The position numbers and the translations under genes are program-made. 64,000 bases of DNA from Chitinophagales bacterium (GTDB lineage: Bacteria; Bacteroidota; Bacteroidia; Chitinophagales; Chitinophagaceae): NCBI GenBank assembly GCA_015654595.1, contig JAATGQ010000041.1, forward strand, positions 62,001-126,000. Reading direction: 5' to 3'. The notes under the pieces were generated by a model. The model was not told the origin of the DNA. It saw only the letters and a list, made by a program, of their open reading frames with translations, and ran no database searches. Of this stretch, positions 270-63,830 are shown piece after piece (the first letter of the stretch is position 1; the number at the start of each line of letters is the position of its first letter).

Positions 270-1730
270 CTAATGCTCAGAAGGCATTTTAGCAGACACT
301 TTATATTGGTTGCACGGAGTACCATCCGGATGAAGCAGACAATAAGGAGAAGTCACCAGTTTGTTTTCTTTTAATGAGAACGGGTCCACAGCCGTCACCT
401 TTGTTACATCCCAGGAATTGGGATAGGTAGCCAGAATATCGTTGCTCGCGCCAACGATGCCATTACCCAATACGGAGCCCTTATTACGACCCCAGGAATA
501 AAGCTGACCTGACGCCGTCAGCGCATAACTGTAAAATACGGCACAGCCGCCGCCATACACGCATATAAAGTCTTTAACTCCAGGCGCTAACCGCACGGGT
601 TTTTCGACCAGTTTTTGACCAGGACTCCAGTCCCAGGCATAAGGAGGATTGTGTTTGGCATAATCGAGCTCTTCGCCATTACCGACACAACCGCAGGCAT
701 TATCGCCCCAACCCCAGAGAGTACCGTCGGTAAGGATGACGTGAGTAGAAACGCTATTGGTAGTGACGGATGCAACGGGATGGGGAAGCCGCAGATCGGT
801 CGTCAGGTCCTTTGGCGTCAACGGCGCAGGCGCCTGATGCGCCCAGCCGCCATTACCGATACACAGGTAAGACGTTAGATATCCCCAACCATAAAGGGTT
901 CCATTAATGCCCAACGCATAAGAAAAGAAGCCGCCCCCGGCGATATCCTTTGCCTTTTGCGGCAGCGGCAGCTGATGCGGATGCGTGTAGTCGGTCGTGT
1001 TAGTCCCCAGTAATTCCTTGCGGTTGTTGCCGCCCCAGGTCCAGACAGTGCCATCACTGGCCAACGCTATTATTATAGATCCGGCTACGACCTTGACGAT
1101 CTTCTTCCCCTTTGGTATATCCACCTGCACAGGTCGTGTGTTCAGCTGCCCCTTTTGTCCATTCCCCCGCATCCCCTCTGTCGTCAACCCCCATATCCAG
1201 ACGGTCCCGTCCGACTTGAGCGCGATATTGCCGTTGCTGCCCCCGCTGGACCAGCAAACGACCTTGACCACCCCGGTAAAAGGATTGCCGGCGCTGTCTT
1301 TTTTGATCTTCACTGGTTGATAACCAATGTCCTCTGTCGTGCCCGTCCCTGATTCCCCCGAGCCGTTGCCGCCCCAGGTCCAGACATTCCCCTCTCTGTC
1401 GGCCCCCAGACTGTTGTGAAGCCCCGAAGCCACATCCACAAACCGGACCTCCTCCGGCACACCGACCCGTATGGGAAGCCCCGGCGTCCCGGCATCCCAG
1501 GCCACCCCCGCCGTGACCAGCGCACTGCTGATCCCATATAACTTGCCACTCTCGGTATTCAGTATAAAACATTGGTATTCGCCCAGACCGACGATATATT
1601 TAGGGGAACGCCCACCCGAAGAAGACCCCGGGCCGGATGAACCGGACAAGACGCTCGTACCCGCCGGAGCCTGCGCGTGTAAAAGATTACAAAGGATAAA
1701 CGATGTAAAAAGGAAGGCGATGCGGTTCAT
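270..1730 (-). CDS. Secreted RCC1-repeat (alpha-tubulin suppressor-like) beta-propeller protein
   Basis: 486-aa ORF with an N-terminal signal peptide (MNRIAFLFTSFILCNLLHAQ) and repeated RCC1-like motifs (VASGLHNSLGADREGNVWTWGGNGSGESG, VVAGSIIIALASDGTVWTWGGNN, ALTASGQLYSWGRN). Confidence 0.85.
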   Translation of the reverse strand: MNRIAFLFTSFILCNLLHAQAPAGTSVLSGSSGPGSSSGGRSPKYIVGLGEYQCFILNTESGKLYGISSALVTAGVAWDAGTPGLPIRVGVPEEVRFVDVASGLHNSLGADREGNVWTWGGNGSGESGTGTTEDIGYQPVKIKKDSAGNPFTGVVKVVCWSSGGSNGNIALKSDGTVWIWGLTTEGMRGNGQKGQLNTRPVQVDIPKGKKIVKVVAGSIIIALASDGTVWTWGGNNRKELLGTNTTDYTHPHQLPLPQKAKDIAGGGFFSYALGINGTLYGWGYLTSYLCIGNGGWAHQAPAPLTPKDLTTDLRLPHPVASVTTNSVSTHVILTDGTLWGWGDNACGCVGNGEELDYAKHNPPYAWDWSPGQKLVEKPVRLAPGVKDFICVYGGGCAVFYSYALTASGQLYSWGRNKGSVLGNGIVGASNDILATYPNSWDVTKVTAVDPFSLKENKLVTSPYCLLHPDGTPCNQYKVSAKMPSEH

Positions 1731-1796
1731 ATGGTCATTTCAGGAATATACGCAAAGTAAGAAAAAGGAAGCTATCTTTAAGCCCATTTACTGACC

Positions 1797-2975
1797 ATGC
1801 GTTATTTAAGAAATCCCCTCCTCCCCATTGCCCTGCTAAGTGCTCTGCTCCTGCTGTTTCAATGGAGAACGGCCCTGGTTCAACCAGGAGCCGCGACGGA
1901 TTTTGATATCTATTATCACGCAGCCGGTTCCTTCGATAAGGCCACCCCCCTGTATTCTACTTCAACCACTTCCTTTGACCAATACCTCTATCCCCCGCCC
2001 TGTATCCTGATCTTCCGGTTCTTTCACCATTTCCGGGAAAGAACGGCCTGGCTGGTCTTCGATATCCTGATGTACGGATGCCTGATGACGGCATTATGGA
2101 TTGCCCTGGCCATGGTAAAGACAACCCCGGCCAACCGCGTCTACCTGCTATTCTTTGCGCTGGCCTCCGCGCCGGTTTACCACCAGATGCTGCTCGGGCA
2201 GATCAACGCCCTCGTGCTGCTGCTTTCCATCAGTTATCTCTATTGGTATAAACGCAGACCTGTACTGGCAGGCGCCTGCCTGGCCTGCGCCATCTGGATC
2301 AAGGTCTATCCTGTCCTGCTGCTGGCCCCGGCACTTTTCTACGCCCCAGGCCGAAAAGCCTTCGCCTGGACCATCCTCGCCGGAATCCTCGTCCCCCTGC
2401 TGTGCCTGCCCATACTTTCCTTTCATCAATACCTGGATTTCGCCCGGACCCTGGCAGCCCTCTCGCAATATACGGCCGCCAATATCATCAATCAGTCCTT
2501 TACGGGGTTCAGCATGCGGATCATGCTGCCCTGGCAGAACGGCTTTTCCTGGCCCAGCGTTTACTGGATACCAAGAGCAATTAAGATATTCAATTATGCA
2601 TTATTGCTGCTCGTCCTCATAAAGTCCATTATCAAGGTCAAACAGAGCTTTTTCCTGAGCGGCATCATCATTTTGGCCGCCTGCGCGGTATTTTCCCCTT
2701 TAGGCTGGGGTCACACCTTTGTCTTTTGCCTCCCCTTATGGCTGGCCGCCTTCGCCCAGTGGAATGACCCCGACCTGAACATACCGCTGACCAGGATATT
2801 GACCATCGTGCTGGCCCCGCTTTTGCTTATCCCGGTATACAACCATCCGGGGCTGCTGGACCGCTGGCCGCATATCATCGGAGCGCTTTACTTTTCCCGG
2901 TTCTTGTTCATTACGCTATTCTTAATTTTTTTAATCGGGAATCCCTTTGCAAAAAGCAATCTCACAAGCGATTAG
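1797..2975 (+). CDS. DUF2029/GT87-family polyprenol-phosphate-mannose-dependent glycosyltransferase-like membrane protein
   Basis: 392-aa multi-TM ORF with the features ATDFDIYYHAAG..LYPPPCILIF and LLGQINALVLLLSISYLYWYKRRPVLAGACLACAIWIKVYPVLLL typical of this family. Confidence 0.75.
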   Translation: MRYLRNPLLPIALLSALLLLFQWRTALVQPGAATDFDIYYHAAGSFDKATPLYSTSTTSFDQYLYPPPCILIFRFFHHFRERTAWLVFDILMYGCLMTALWIALAMVKTTPANRVYLLFFALASAPVYHQMLLGQINALVLLLSISYLYWYKRRPVLAGACLACAIWIKVYPVLLLAPALFYAPGRKAFAWTILAGILVPLLCLPILSFHQYLDFARTLAALSQYTAANIINQSFTGFSMRIMLPWQNGFSWPSVYWIPRAIKIFNYALLLLVLIKSIIKVKQSFFLSGIIILAACAVFSPLGWGHTFVFCLPLWLAAFAQWNDPDLNIPLTRILTIVLAPLLLIPVYNHPGLLDRWPHIIGALYFSRFLFITLFLIFLIGNPFAKSNLTSD

Positions 2976-3045
2976 CCGTTCTCGTACCGACTTTTTATCG
3001 TATGTTTGAGCGCCCCTGCACCATTCCTTATAAATTCTTAGGCCG

Positions 3046-4506
3046 TTGAAGAAAGTCTTTTCATCATACTGGATCCGTTCTGCATTCTTTTCCCTGCTGC
3101 AGCGCTTCTCCGTTACTTTCTTCGGATTTGTCAATATGGTCATCCTCTACAGGAACCACTCGCTTTCCAGGTCACAGGTTGGTATATGGTCGCTCTTTCT
3201 GGCTATCACGACAATCTTCGAACAGTCAAAGGTCGGTCTCCTCAAGAACGCACATATCCGTTATGTCAGCAGCAGCGACGACGAACACGAAAAGGTGGTC
3301 ATCGCTTCTTCTTCCTTTCTTATCAATGCAGCCATTACACTGATATTTATCGTACTGATCGCTCTTTTCTCCAACTGGGTCGGCGCCATATTTCATTCGG
3401 AGAATGAACTCGGATCGATGTTCCAATGGTTTATCCCGGGACTCATCATCATGGTGCTGTTCTCCCACCTGGAAGCCATCCAACAATCTTTCCTGGATTT
3501 CAAAGGGGTATTCGCCGGTTATTTTGTACGACAGATCGTCTTCTTTGTATTTCTCGGAGGCAGCTGGCTGCTTCACATTCCGTATACGCTGCGTAATGTC
3601 GTTATTTATCAGTCAGCAGGCTTTCTCTGCGGAACGATCGCGATCTGGTACTATAGCCGGGCTTATCTCCATTATAAATTCATCCCCACCAAAAGCGGCG
3701 TCATTCAGATCGTCCAATACGGCAAATACATCTTTGCATCCGGTACCATCTCCCAGATGTTCACCAATCTGGACCAGATGATGACGGGAAAGTTCAAGGA
3801 TACCAGCATGGTCGCTCCCTACAATGCGGCCCTTCGGATCAACAGTCTGCTGGACGTCCCTTCCTATGCAGCCGCAGATATCCTCTTTCCAAAAAGTGCA
3901 CGCGCATCCATGGAACAGGAAGAAGGCAAAGTACGCTACCTCTTCGAAAGAATGGTTGGCATCCTGCTGGCCTTTAGCGCTCCCATCGCCCTTTTTATCA
4001 TCCTGTTCGCCAAACCGATCATCTATATCATCGTCGGCAGCCAGTATATCTCCGCCGCTCCTATCCTGCAACTGTATATGATCACCGGCCTGATCCGCCC
4101 CATGCAGAATCAGTCGGCCAACCTCCTCAATTCCATCGGCAAACAAGCGATATGTTTCTGGATGAATACCGCAGCACTTGTGCTTAATCTGCTGATCAAC
4201 TACGCCTGCATGCGCACCATCGGCTTTTATGGCGCAGCCGTCGGCAGCACACTCAGCTATTCGGTCGCATTGATCGCCTGGTGGATCCTTATGCGCAAGC
4301 TGATTGGATTTGAAGGAAAGAATATCTGGAAGTACATGCTGGAGTCCTATATGATGATGTACGGCTTTGCGATAAAACTGCTCCGCCGCGGCAATACGGG
4401 CGGCACGCCGGAAAACAACACGGGCGGACCCGGCAACATGCCCGTCTTACCCGATCACCCCTCAGAACCTATCTCCCACCCGACATCCGATCTTCCAGTC
4501 GAGTAA
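3046..4506 (+). CDS. Wzx-like polysaccharide flippase (MATE/MOP superfamily)
   Basis: 486-aa multi-TM ORF, probable TTG start, Wzx/RfbX-like topology (VNMVILYRNHSLSRSQVGIWSLFLAITTIFEQSKVGLLKN; QMFTNLDQMMTGKF), EPS gene neighbourhood. Confidence 0.8.
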   Translation: MKKVFSSYWIRSAFFSLLQRFSVTFFGFVNMVILYRNHSLSRSQVGIWSLFLAITTIFEQSKVGLLKNAHIRYVSSSDDEHEKVVIASSSFLINAAITLIFIVLIALFSNWVGAIFHSENELGSMFQWFIPGLIIMVLFSHLEAIQQSFLDFKGVFAGYFVRQIVFFVFLGGSWLLHIPYTLRNVVIYQSAGFLCGTIAIWYYSRAYLHYKFIPTKSGVIQIVQYGKYIFASGTISQMFTNLDQMMTGKFKDTSMVAPYNAALRINSLLDVPSYAAADILFPKSARASMEQEEGKVRYLFERMVGILLAFSAPIALFIILFAKPIIYIIVGSQYISAAPILQLYMITGLIRPMQNQSANLLNSIGKQAICFWMNTAALVLNLLINYACMRTIGFYGAAVGSTLSYSVALIAWWILMRKLIGFEGKNIWKYMLESYMMMYGFAIKLLRRGNTGGTPENNTGGPGNMPVLPDHPSEPISHPTSDLPVE

Positions 4507-57014: not shown

Positions 57015-58310
57015 TCAGCCAATTGTCTGCAAAGCGCCATCCCAGTCCTTCCACACCGCCTCATAACCCTGCCGCCGGATCATCGCCGCAATCTCCGCAG
57101 GACTCCGGTCGTCATGAATAGCAAACTGCTCCAGCGATTCGGGATCGACGACATATCCCCCCGGATTCGTCCTCGAACCTGCACTCAACGCCGTAATACC
57201 CAGCTTTATCGCATGATCCCGAAAAACCGGGCTTTCCCTTGTCGACAACGAAAGCTCCACATCCCCATCCAGCAGCCGATAAGCGCAGATCAGCTGGATC
57301 AACTCCCGATCCGACATCTCTACTTTCGGATTGACCCAGCCCGGGGGCAAGCCGCTGGCGCCGCCCGCAACAGCACCTTCTGTCGCATAGCTATTGCCAT
57401 CTTGCCGCCCAAGCGCCCCCCATCCAGCCTCTACGACGCCACCGCCATTCACTACCCCAGCATTACCACCCACACCCGTCGGCGCCCCATCTTGCCGCCC
57501 GGCGTCCACAGCGGCAGCACCCGCATAAGGCCTCAGCCGGGGAAACGACAGGGAGTATTTCGTCCTCCAATACCGCTGCTCCAGGTAACGCAGATGCAGC
57601 GCCGTAAACCAGCTATCCACACGCCAATCCTCGAGCCCGATCAATACCCCCAATCCCATCTTGTGAACCCCAGCCCTGCCCAGCCGATCCGGCGTCTCCA
57701 GCCGATACGTAAAATTGGACTTCTTTCCTTTCGGATGATGCAGCTTATAATCCTCCCGATGATAGGTCTCCTGGTAAACCAGCACGGTGTTCAAGCCATG
57801 CTCCACCAGCCGTGCATAGTCCCCCTCTTCCAAAGGCTGCACCTCCATCGAGATATGCGCAAAATGCGGCCGGATGATGTCCAGCGCTTTTATAAAATAG
57901 TCAACCCCTACCGTCAGATTGGCCTCTCCGCTTACCAGCAATACATGCTCGTAACCCATCGCCTTTATCGCGCCGATCTCCTGCAGCAGCTCGCCAGCAC
58001 TCAGCGTCCTTCTTCTTAATTTATTGTCATAACTGAACCCGCAATACCGGCATATATTCTGACATTCGTTGGACAGATAGAGGGGGATATAAAGTTGAAT
58101 GGTTTTCCCAAATCGCCTCTGTGTCAGCCGATGGCTCTCCTTGGCCATCTCTTACAGATATGGCGCCGCCGCGGGAGAGATCAGGGCAGCAAAGTCTTCC
58201 AGGTCGCGGCTGGAGCGGCCCAAAGCGCGCTCGACATCAACCTTCGTTTTTTTATAAATACTTCGCTTAATATCCTCCCAGCTATATTGCTCAAATACTG
58301 ATGTAAACAT
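57015..58310 (-). pseudogene. thiH: 2-iminoacetate synthase ThiH with an in-frame TAA at 58152-58154 (disrupted, or translated as two parts)
   Basis: The minus-strand frame from ATG 58310 reads MFTSVFEQYSWEDIKRSIYKKTKVDVERALGRSSRDLEDFAALISPAAAPYL*EMAKESHRLTQRRFGKTIQLYIPLYLSNECQNICRYCGFSYDN. Both halves match ThiH and are in the same frame; radical-SAM CxxxCxxC is present. The track ORF is only 57015..58148. Confidence 0.85.
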
Positions 58311-58423: not shown

Positions 58424-59191
58424 CTAATCCAAAAACGCGGTCAACGGACTACTCGCCTCTGCTTCAGCCAAAGGCTGCGCCAGCCTTGCTTCAAAAGCCA
58501 TCCTTCCCGACTCCACAGCCAGTCGAAACGCTTCCGCCATCTTCACAGGATCAGCGCTTGCCGCAATCGCCGTATTAACCAATACGGCATCAGCCCCCAT
58601 CTCCATCGCCTTTGCCGCATCCGAAGGCGCCCCTATCCCCGCATCTACCACCACCGGCACATTGCTCTGCTGAATGATGATCTCCAAAAACTCCGCGGTC
58701 TTCAATCCCTTGTTACTCCCGATTGGCGAGCCCAGCGGCATCACAGCGGCAACCCCTACTTCCTCCAATCGCCGGCAAAGCACAGGATCGGCATGAACAT
58801 AAGGCAATACCACAAACCCCCTCCGCACCAGCTCCTCAGCCGCAGCCAACGTCTCTATCGGATCAGGCAGCAGCCACCGCGGGTCCGGATGGATCTCTAG
58901 CTTCAACCAGTTAGTGCCCAGCGCCTCTCTTGCCAGCTCCGCAGCAAATAATGCCTCGCGCGCGCTTCGAACACCCGATGTATTCGGCAGCAAATGCTGA
59001 TGCGGATGCCGCAGACGCATCAATAACCCTTCGCCGGATCCGCCGTCACGAATATCGACCCTCCTGAGCGCAACAGTGATCAACTCCGAACCGCTGGCCA
59101 GCAAAGCGTCTTCCATGACCTGGTCCGAACCAAATTTGCCGGTCCCCGTAAACAGACGCGATTGAAATGTTTTATCAGCTATCGTCAACAT
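58424..59191 (-). CDS. thiG: Thiazole synthase
   Basis: Start likely Met 59191 ([46 protein letters not shown]); [32 protein letters not shown]. Confidence 0.95.
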
Positions 59192-59226: not shown

Positions 59227-59268
59227 TTGTCACCCACTCTTTGTCACCCACTCTTTGTCACCCACCCT
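59227..59268. repeat. Three tandem 14-bp units in the thiE-thiG gap
   Basis: TTGTCACCCACTCT / TTGTCACCCACTCT / TTGTCACCCACCCT read directly on the + strand. Confidence 0.95.
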
Positions 59269-59289
59269 TCACCCGCCGCCCACCTGGCT

Positions 59290-59937
59290 TCATCCTTTCC
59301 CCGCGAGCATCCGGTGCAGCTGCGCTTCCAGCATTTTTACCTGCGCCGGCGCATCTTCCGCATGTACCAGCATCCCTGAAAAGGCAATCCCATAAACGCC
59401 AGCCTCGATAAGCAAGGGCACATCCTCACTGCCAATCCCACCGATGGCCACCATCGGAAGCCGTATACCTTCGGCAAGCATCTGCTGTATAATGTGCTGA
59501 TACCCTTCCAGACCCAATATGGGACTCAGTTTTTTCTTTGTCGTCGTATAACGGAACGGACCAACGCCTACATAGTCTGCTCCCTGCCGGTAGTGTTCCC
59601 GCACATGCGCTATGGTATTGGCCGTACCTCCAATAATCGCTTCTTCCCCCAACAACCTGCGCGCATCGCCAACAGCCATATCCTCCTGCCCCAGATGGAC
59701 ACCGTCTGCACCCGCAGCAACGGCCACATGCACGCGATCATTGATGATCAGGGTAGCCCCATGGATCTGACATATTTTCTTTGCGGCGAGCGCCGTCTCC
59801 AGCACCTCTTCGTCGGTTGCCTCCTTCATCCGAAGCTGGATCAGATGGATACCCGCCTTGCAGGCCATTCCCACTTGCTTCAGATGAGAAGGCCCGCCAT
59901 CCATCGTAATAAAGTATAGTCGGTTTAGTGATGCCAT
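59290..59937 (-). CDS. thiE: Thiamine phosphate synthase
   Basis: 215 aa; GIHLIQLRMK, TLIINDRVHVAVAAGADGVHLGQEDMAVGDAR, DYVGVGPFRYTTTKKK, PMVAIGGI. Confidence 0.95.
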   Translation of the reverse strand: MASLNRLYFITMDGGPSHLKQVGMACKAGIHLIQLRMKEATDEEVLETALAAKKICQIHGATLIINDRVHVAVAAGADGVHLGQEDMAVGDARRLLGEEAIIGGTANTIAHVREHYRQGADYVGVGPFRYTTTKKKLSPILGLEGYQHIIQQMLAEGIRLPMVAIGGIGSEDVPLLIEAGVYGIAFSGMLVHAEDAPAQVKMLEAQLHRMLAGKG

Positions 59938-61001
59938 CCTAATGTTGTCGTATTACTGGTTAAAAAACGGTGGATGTATTTTTTTGATCGGCATGCTGCC
60001 TCATATAAAGAATATCCCAGCGCCAGATTGGCCGTCAAAGCAGAAGCCATCACGCAGCCAGAGCCATGCTTTGGATATACTTCCTGTAAACCAGGCTCCG
60101 GCTTTAGCACGCGAACCTCGCCCTGACTCCACAAAAAATCCTGTCCTGGCCTATGAGGATGATGTCCCCCCTTCAGATAAATATTCGTCTTTCCCGATTG
60201 CGTCAACAACGCACAACGTTTCTGTATATCATCCCCAGGATAAAGCCAGCCCATCTCTTCCCAGTTTGGCGTCAACAAATAACAAGACGCCAGAATTTCC
60301 TCCCAGTCCTCACGGCCGTTTCCCAATGTCCAGAAAGCAGCGCCGCTGCTGGCCCGGATAACAGGGTCCATCACCATTCGAATAGCGGGATTATGCTGGC
60401 GGAGATGATGAAAGATATTCAAGGCCTGTTGCATCGACCTCGTGATACCCATCTTCACCCAATCAAAACCCGTCGATTCGAAACAAAGGTCTATCTGCTC
60501 AAAGACCTCCTCATCCGAAAACCATTCCAGACGGCGGATGGTCTTTTCATTCTGGAAAGTAAACCCTGTACAAACCGCATAGCCATAGACGCTATGCGCT
60601 TCCAATGTCTTCACATCCGAAAGCACACCCGCTCCGGCACTCTGGTCGTAACCGGCAATGACCAGAACTTTAGGACGGCAAACCTCCTGTCCATCCATGC
60701 CCGCGTCCGGCTGATCATGGCGGCCCGTACCTGTGCCCATCCCAGCTGACCGATCGTCCCGGCCCGTACCTGTGCCCATCCCAGCTGACCGATCGTCCCG
60801 GCCCGTACCCGTTCCCATCCCAGCTGACCGATCGTCCCGGCCCCTGCTTGTGCCCATCCCATCTGACCGATCATCCCGGCCCGTGCATGATGCGCCCATC
60901 ACCTCCCGGGAGTGCTCGCCTTCGCCGGCCCCTCCTGCGATGCACTCGCCCCTCCCGTCCATAAGAACGACTCTTCCGCCTGCATTATCCTCCTTCCGCA
61001 T
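59925..61001 (-). CDS. thiD: Hydroxymethylpyrimidine/phosphomethylpyrimidine kinase with a repetitive N-terminal extension
   Basis: 358 aa; VLVIAGYDQSAGAGVLSDVKTLEAHSVYGYAVCTGFTFQN; GSGCVMASALTANLALGYSLYEAACRSKKYI; ~110-aa N-terminal extension. Confidence 0.9.
   Translation of the reverse strand: MRKEDNAGGRVVLMDGRGECIAGGAGEGEHSREVMGASCTGRDDRSDGMGTSRGRDDRSAGMGTGTGRDDRSAGMGTGTGRDDRSAGMGTGTGRHDQPDAGMDGQEVCRPKVLVIAGYDQSAGAGVLSDVKTLEAHSVYGYAVCTGFTFQNEKTIRRLEWFSDEEVFEQIDLCFESTGFDWVKMGITRSMQQALNIFHHLRQHNPAIRMVMDPVIRASSGAAFWTLGNGREDWEEILASCYLLTPNWEEMGWLYPGDDIQKRCALLTQSGKTNIYLKGGHHPHRPGQDFLWSQGEVRVLKPEPGLQEVYPKHGSGCVMASALTANLALGYSLYEAACRSKKYIHRFLTSNTTTLGWHH
60721..60876. repeat. Four tandem 39-bp (13-aa) units inside thiD
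   Basis: Units of CGGCCCGTACCTGTGCCCATCCCAGCTGACCGATCGTCC (two identical, then two diverging), encoding GRDDRSAGMGTGT-type repeats on the minus strand; degenerate units flank both sides. Confidence 0.95.
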
Positions 61002-61695
61002 CGATTATTTTTTTCAATTGTAAAAACCGATTGAGAGCCTTCTTTGGCTCCTCCCAGATATAGCCCAGCACCGCAGCGCCTTTCCAACCCATCCGGATCA
61101 TTTCGCCAAGCGAATCCGCCCCTATCCCCCCTAGTCCAACCGGCGTACAAGGCAATAGCCCCGACGGCAGCTGCAGCAGTCCGGTCCCTGCCGCATAACC
61201 CGGCTTGGAGATACTGTCGAACAATGGACTGATAAAGGCATAGGACAATCCTGAAGGCAATAGCCCGAACTCCGTCCAGGAATGCACAGACGTGGAAACG
61301 GCAAAGGCTGAGCGCTCTTCTATAAAAGGTCCGCCTCCGCTTCGTCCCTGGCCATTGCTATAGCCGACCGAACCATGCAGCTGCGGAATATGATACCGCT
61401 TTGCCAGTTGCGGTGAACCATGCAACACCAGTCGTGAAGACCAGCGAGGACAGAGCAGCGACAGCAAAGCGGTCAACTGCATCTCGCTGGCATCCGGCTT
61501 ACGGATATGAAGCTTTGGCAAACCCGCCTCCAGCAACTCTTCCAATAAGAGCGCTTCGTCGGGAAAATTATGCGGCAGCGTCAGCAGTGCCAGCAGAAAT
61601 GGCGGAGCCTCTTCCGGCGTATCCACGGCCCAGTCCTCGACGCCTTCAACGGGCCCGCTCTTTGCGGTCCCTCTATTTTCATTTTTATTGGTCAT
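60985..61695 (-). CDS. TenI/ThiE-like thiamine phosphate synthase family protein
   Basis: 236 aa; LEELLEAGLPKLHIRKPDASE, RLVLHGSPQLAKRYHIPQLHG, YAFISPLFDSISKPGY, PVGLGGIGADSLGEMIRMGWKGAAVLGYIW. Confidence 0.85.
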   Translation of the reverse strand: MTNKNENRGTAKSGPVEGVEDWAVDTPEEAPPFLLALLTLPHNFPDEALLLEELLEAGLPKLHIRKPDASEMQLTALLSLLCPRWSSRLVLHGSPQLAKRYHIPQLHGSVGYSNGQGRSGGGPFIEERSAFAVSTSVHSWTEFGLLPSGLSYAFISPLFDSISKPGYAAGTGLLQLPSGLLPCTPVGLGGIGADSLGEMIRMGWKGAAVLGYIWEEPKKALNRFLQLKKIIDAEGG

Positions 61696-61697
61696 GC

Positions 61698-63830
<2,133 letters not shown>

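Follow-up and report, generated by a model that had tools for sequence, protein, structure and literature searches.

An in-frame stop at codon 53 of thiH in a Chitinophagales draft genome, probably a recent nonsense mutation in the thiamine operon

In the crystal structure of ThiH, residues 1-71 form a compact alpha-domain and residues 71-356 the radical SAM barrel, and this compact N-terminal domain is common to BioB, HydE, PylB, HydG and NosL (PMC9046217). Here, we analysed a stretch of 64,000 nucleotides (the window) from a Chitinophagales bacterium (GCA_015654595.1, contig JAATGQ010000041.1), in which thiH lies on the minus strand and its reading frame is interrupted by an in-frame TAA at codon 53 (58152..58154), as seen from sequence reading and from homology on both sides. 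The draft genome comprises 6.03 Mb in 265 contigs and is 87% complete, and the contig that contains the window is 190 kb long.

The thiH frame starts at ATG 58310, runs through 52 codons (58155..58310, minus strand) to the TAA and continues for 378 more codons to the stop at 57015. The minus strand around the stop reads GCG CCA TAT CTG TAA GAG ATG GCC, and a second ATG is thus found at 58148, 3 nt beyond the TAA with one GAG codon between. Our re-reading agrees with the preliminary description in the position of the TAA, in the continuation of the same frame back to ATG 58310, where it encodes a ThiH N-terminus, and in a single substitution with no frameshift, since the frame and the residues are intact on both sides. 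The ORF list made by the program contains only the downstream part (57015..58148, minus strand, from ATG 58148, 377 aa), and the 52 upstream codons have a hexamer coding score equal to the median of random open windows. Therefore, these codons are taken as coding because they are homologous to relatives, not because of their composition, and, judged from this homology, the interrupted frame is not a chance ORF.

Comparison with relatives places the lesion in this genome. Nine same-genus and ten further same-order ThiH genes (19 in total) together with 80 GTDB loci were compared, and none of these 99 relatives has a stop at codon 53; the whole-gene alignment of the 19 contains no internal stop, and no stop was found in the compared segment of the 80 loci. 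When the first 262 residues were searched with X at the stop, they aligned end to end with 76-81% identity to the nine intact same-genus ThiH proteins, with one internal TAA in the window locus and zero in the nine genes, and the upstream 52 residues alone still showed 62-71% identity. At position 53, 78 of 79 GTDB loci have Glu (46 GAA and 32 GAG codons) and the remaining one has Ala. Of the two ancestral codons proposed in the preliminary description, GAA is thus favoured, but CAA is not, because no locus has Gln. In 79 of the 80 loci the N-terminus is retained and the alignment begins with residue 1 or 2; the exception (L068) starts at a contig end, so the suggestion that relatives may start naturally at MAKESH did not hold. 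ATG 58148 was also rejected as the natural start, because relatives encode the N-terminus and it forms the alpha-domain in the ThiH crystal structure. Since the relatives have no stop, keep the N-terminus and use Glu codons here, the simplest origin is a continuous ancestral thiH in which one G-to-T change hit GAA. The absence of the lesion from all 19 genus and order genes and all 80 GTDB loci is as expected for a recent nonsense pseudogene. We consider, with a probability of roughly 0.6, that a recent nonsense substitution at thiH codon 53, most simply GAA to TAA, has left the host with no full-length 2-iminoacetate synthase.

The part of ThiH downstream of the stop is well preserved. The 377-residue ORF alone matches TIGR02351 with 449.9 bits, above the curated cut-off of 380 (NCBIfam), and contains the radical SAM domain (PF04055) and the BATS domain (PF06968); the cluster motif CX3CX2C is present as CQNICRYC, and the alignment is unbroken through the full barrel to the C-terminus. 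The motif carries an unusual Arg (58047-58049), compared with Thr in 78 of the 80 GTDB loci and Val in 7pd1, and this Arg codon is at least two base changes away from Thr codons. The alignment also revealed a Gly/Ala-rich insert of about 60 residues (57342..57521, minus strand) in a loop of variable length across the genus, and the downstream ORF is as long as 377 residues because this insert compensates for the lost N-terminus. Alignment to the 7pd1 chain places the stop within the alpha-domain, ahead of its final part, so that codons 1-52, which are homologous to all relatives and make up most of this domain, are now cut off, whereas the cluster motif, barrel and C-terminus all lie downstream.

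This arrangement raises the idea of a split working gene, in which translation restarts at the ATG just past the TAA and a ThiH without its first 53 residues works by itself or together with the 52-residue fragment. The short distance between stop and ATG, the complete downstream barrel, motif and C-terminus and the unrelaxed downstream part are in its favour, but relatives retain the N-terminal domain and none of them starts at ATG 58148, and the compact domain at this place is shared with the related enzymes named above. In addition, conservation of the N-terminal remnant remains high, which leaves little time for selection to maintain a new form of the gene. We therefore find a split working gene unlikely, and it is slightly less likely still that the protein lacking most of its alpha-domain, produced by reinitiation at ATG 58148 after termination and perhaps helped by the 52-residue fragment in trans, would remain an active 2-iminoacetate synthase. 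Stop readthrough or a suppressor tRNA giving full-length ThiH would account for the conservation of both halves in frame, but no TTA anticodon was seen among the 30 tRNAs read (a list that may be incomplete), the stop shows no stable structure (z 0.68) and no RNA family above the gathering score, TAA terminates other genes of the contig normally, and no relative shares the stop, all of which makes this reading very improbable.

The four options of the preliminary description (pseudogene, split gene, readthrough, error) can accordingly be ranked as recent pseudogene, consensus error, reinitiation and readthrough, and the second of these deserves more weight than the last two. According to it, the fragmented draft carries at this position either a wrong consensus base or one from a minority strain, and thiH of the organism is intact. 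The lesion is a single substitution, thiH shows no other decay and its operon neighbours carry no stops, which speaks for an error and against a recent nonsense mutation, and the possible rescue of activity by reinitiation also counts against the latter reading; moreover, the lesion is known from the draft consensus of one genome of the species, the nearest genomes being other species. On the other hand, the stop is exceptional within the assembly. No stop was found inside 176 domain matches of the draft genome (62 ABC-ATPase and 114 TonB-plug matches), and scanning the 190-kb contig for coding potential returned 30 candidate stops, that of thiH among them. No other convincing interrupted gene was found in this set: the rest read as normal gene termini with a new start behind them, or as shadow frames, and two long candidate pairs checked by domain proved to be different genes. 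An assembly riddled with premature stops was therefore rejected, and the length of the contig suggests fair coverage. Thus, a consensus error is possible but tentative, and the base is more probably real.

The age of the lesion was also considered. Mean nonsynonymous divergence of the N-terminal remnant is 0.239, the highest of ten genes but only marginally above the others (0.173-0.228), and the ratio of remnant to rest-of-gene divergence is 2.03, compared with 1.35-1.95 in the others. Changes at otherwise invariant columns of thiH number 7 of 218, within the range of 2-9 in relatives, in a comparison that left out thiG and thiD, whose gap-free alignments each suffered from one sequence that was divergent or badly extracted; the downstream part has no excess of unusual changes. 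Long-standing decay of thiH, of which these values show no sign, was disfavoured. Because the segment before the stop has drifted little beyond its relatives, the stop is either young or not real, and a very young lesion would be expected to leave such values; with even the nearest relatives so distant, the estimate can be no finer than "young".

In the genome, thiH is the last gene of an operon in the order thiS-C-E-D-E-G-H, and all the other genes are open (ORFs given below with coordinates are on the minus strand). thiG (58424..59191) matches PF05690 over its full length with 354.8 bits and has no stops; its ORF is listed from GTG 59251, and the start at ATG 59191 is our reading of the sequence. 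thiE (59290..59937) is above the cut-off of NF000736, and a 14-bp tandem repeat (3.1 copies, 59227-59269) lies between thiE and thiG. The thiD-like ORF (59925..61001; TIGR00097, E 2.6e-38, below cut-off) has a repetitive N-terminal extension with an in-frame 39-bp tandem repeat (4.2 copies, 92% matches, 60721-60884), and most relatives align only from residue 109. It is preceded by a second thiE/tenI-like ORF (60985..61695), which has no NCBIfam match and is named from its operon position and its homologues in the genus, and by thiC (61698..63818; NF006763, 1052.6 bits), which has no stops and also carries a Gly/Ala-rich insert, around residues 200-260. Upstream of thiC, across the window end, a short ORF resembles by eye ThiS with terminal Gly-Gly, and a TPP riboswitch (77.5 bits) lies beyond it. 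The order thiC, thiE/tenI-like, thiD, thiE, thiG and thiH is the same in the same-genus genomes read.

Within the genus, thiC, full-length thiG and thiH are all present in 10 of 33 genomes (G000-G032) and all absent in the remaining 23, a group that includes many genomes of 97-100% completeness. Short PF05690 matches in these 23 cover part of the profile only and were rejected as ThiG. Retention is seen mostly in the larger genomes of the genus, and the window genome is the only one of the 33 that has thiC and thiG with a broken thiH. The assembly contains one ThiH only and no ThiO above cut-off (best 126 against 250.8 bits); as it is 87% complete, a substitute gene could be missing from the data. 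On another contig (L172, G000:C161:34001-44000, at about 1729-4147), a second TPP riboswitch immediately precedes a TonB-dependent receptor, and this receptor is a possible candidate for a thiamine uptake route. Two PF04973 proteins were considered for PnuT uptake; one, beside what we read as a NadR-type kinase, is probably PnuC, and the other lies at a contig end. Since 23 of the 33 genomes lack thiC, thiG and thiH, dependence on outside thiamine seems tolerated in the lineage.

From this evidence, we propose that in the host, which belongs to the same genus as Puia dinghuensis, a recent change, most simply of GAA to TAA, has probably hit the last gene of the thiamine operon. Translation from ATG 58310 would then stop after 52 residues and yield no full-length 2-iminoacetate synthase, and a protein initiated anew at ATG 58148, if there is one, would retain the radical SAM barrel while lacking most of the N-terminal alpha-domain. 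Because there would be neither a second ThiH nor ThiO, dehydroglycine would not be supplied for thiazole synthesis, and the organism would depend on outside thiamine or thiazole; on these sequence grounds, the nonsense mutation probably abolishes thiazole synthesis. The case has a practical side: with its 377 residues and a score above the ThiH threshold, the downstream ORF would pass for an intact thiH in automatic annotation, and the genome would be scored as that of a thiamine prototroph. Provided that the TAA is genuine, this genome shows the first step on the way to losing a pathway that is wholly absent from most members of the genus sequenced so far.

In conclusion, the thiH stop is confirmed as an observation and is ordinary in kind, and our literature search found no account of this lesion. 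Compared with the known 2-iminoacetate synthase ThiH (TIGR02351; Thermosinus carboxydivorans, PDB 7pd1), the window ThiH has the same radical SAM and BATS domains, CX3CX2C motif and operon place after thiG, but it differs in the motif Arg, in the Gly/Ala-rich loop insert and in the TAA at codon 53, which breaks the otherwise continuous frame that includes the N-terminal alpha-domain. Compared with a typical nonsense-mutation pseudogene of a biosynthetic gene, it is set apart by a single lesion with no further decay, known from a draft consensus, and it shares the main feature of this class, one substitution that turns a codon of an otherwise undamaged gene into a stop, in a genus where loss of the pathway is common.
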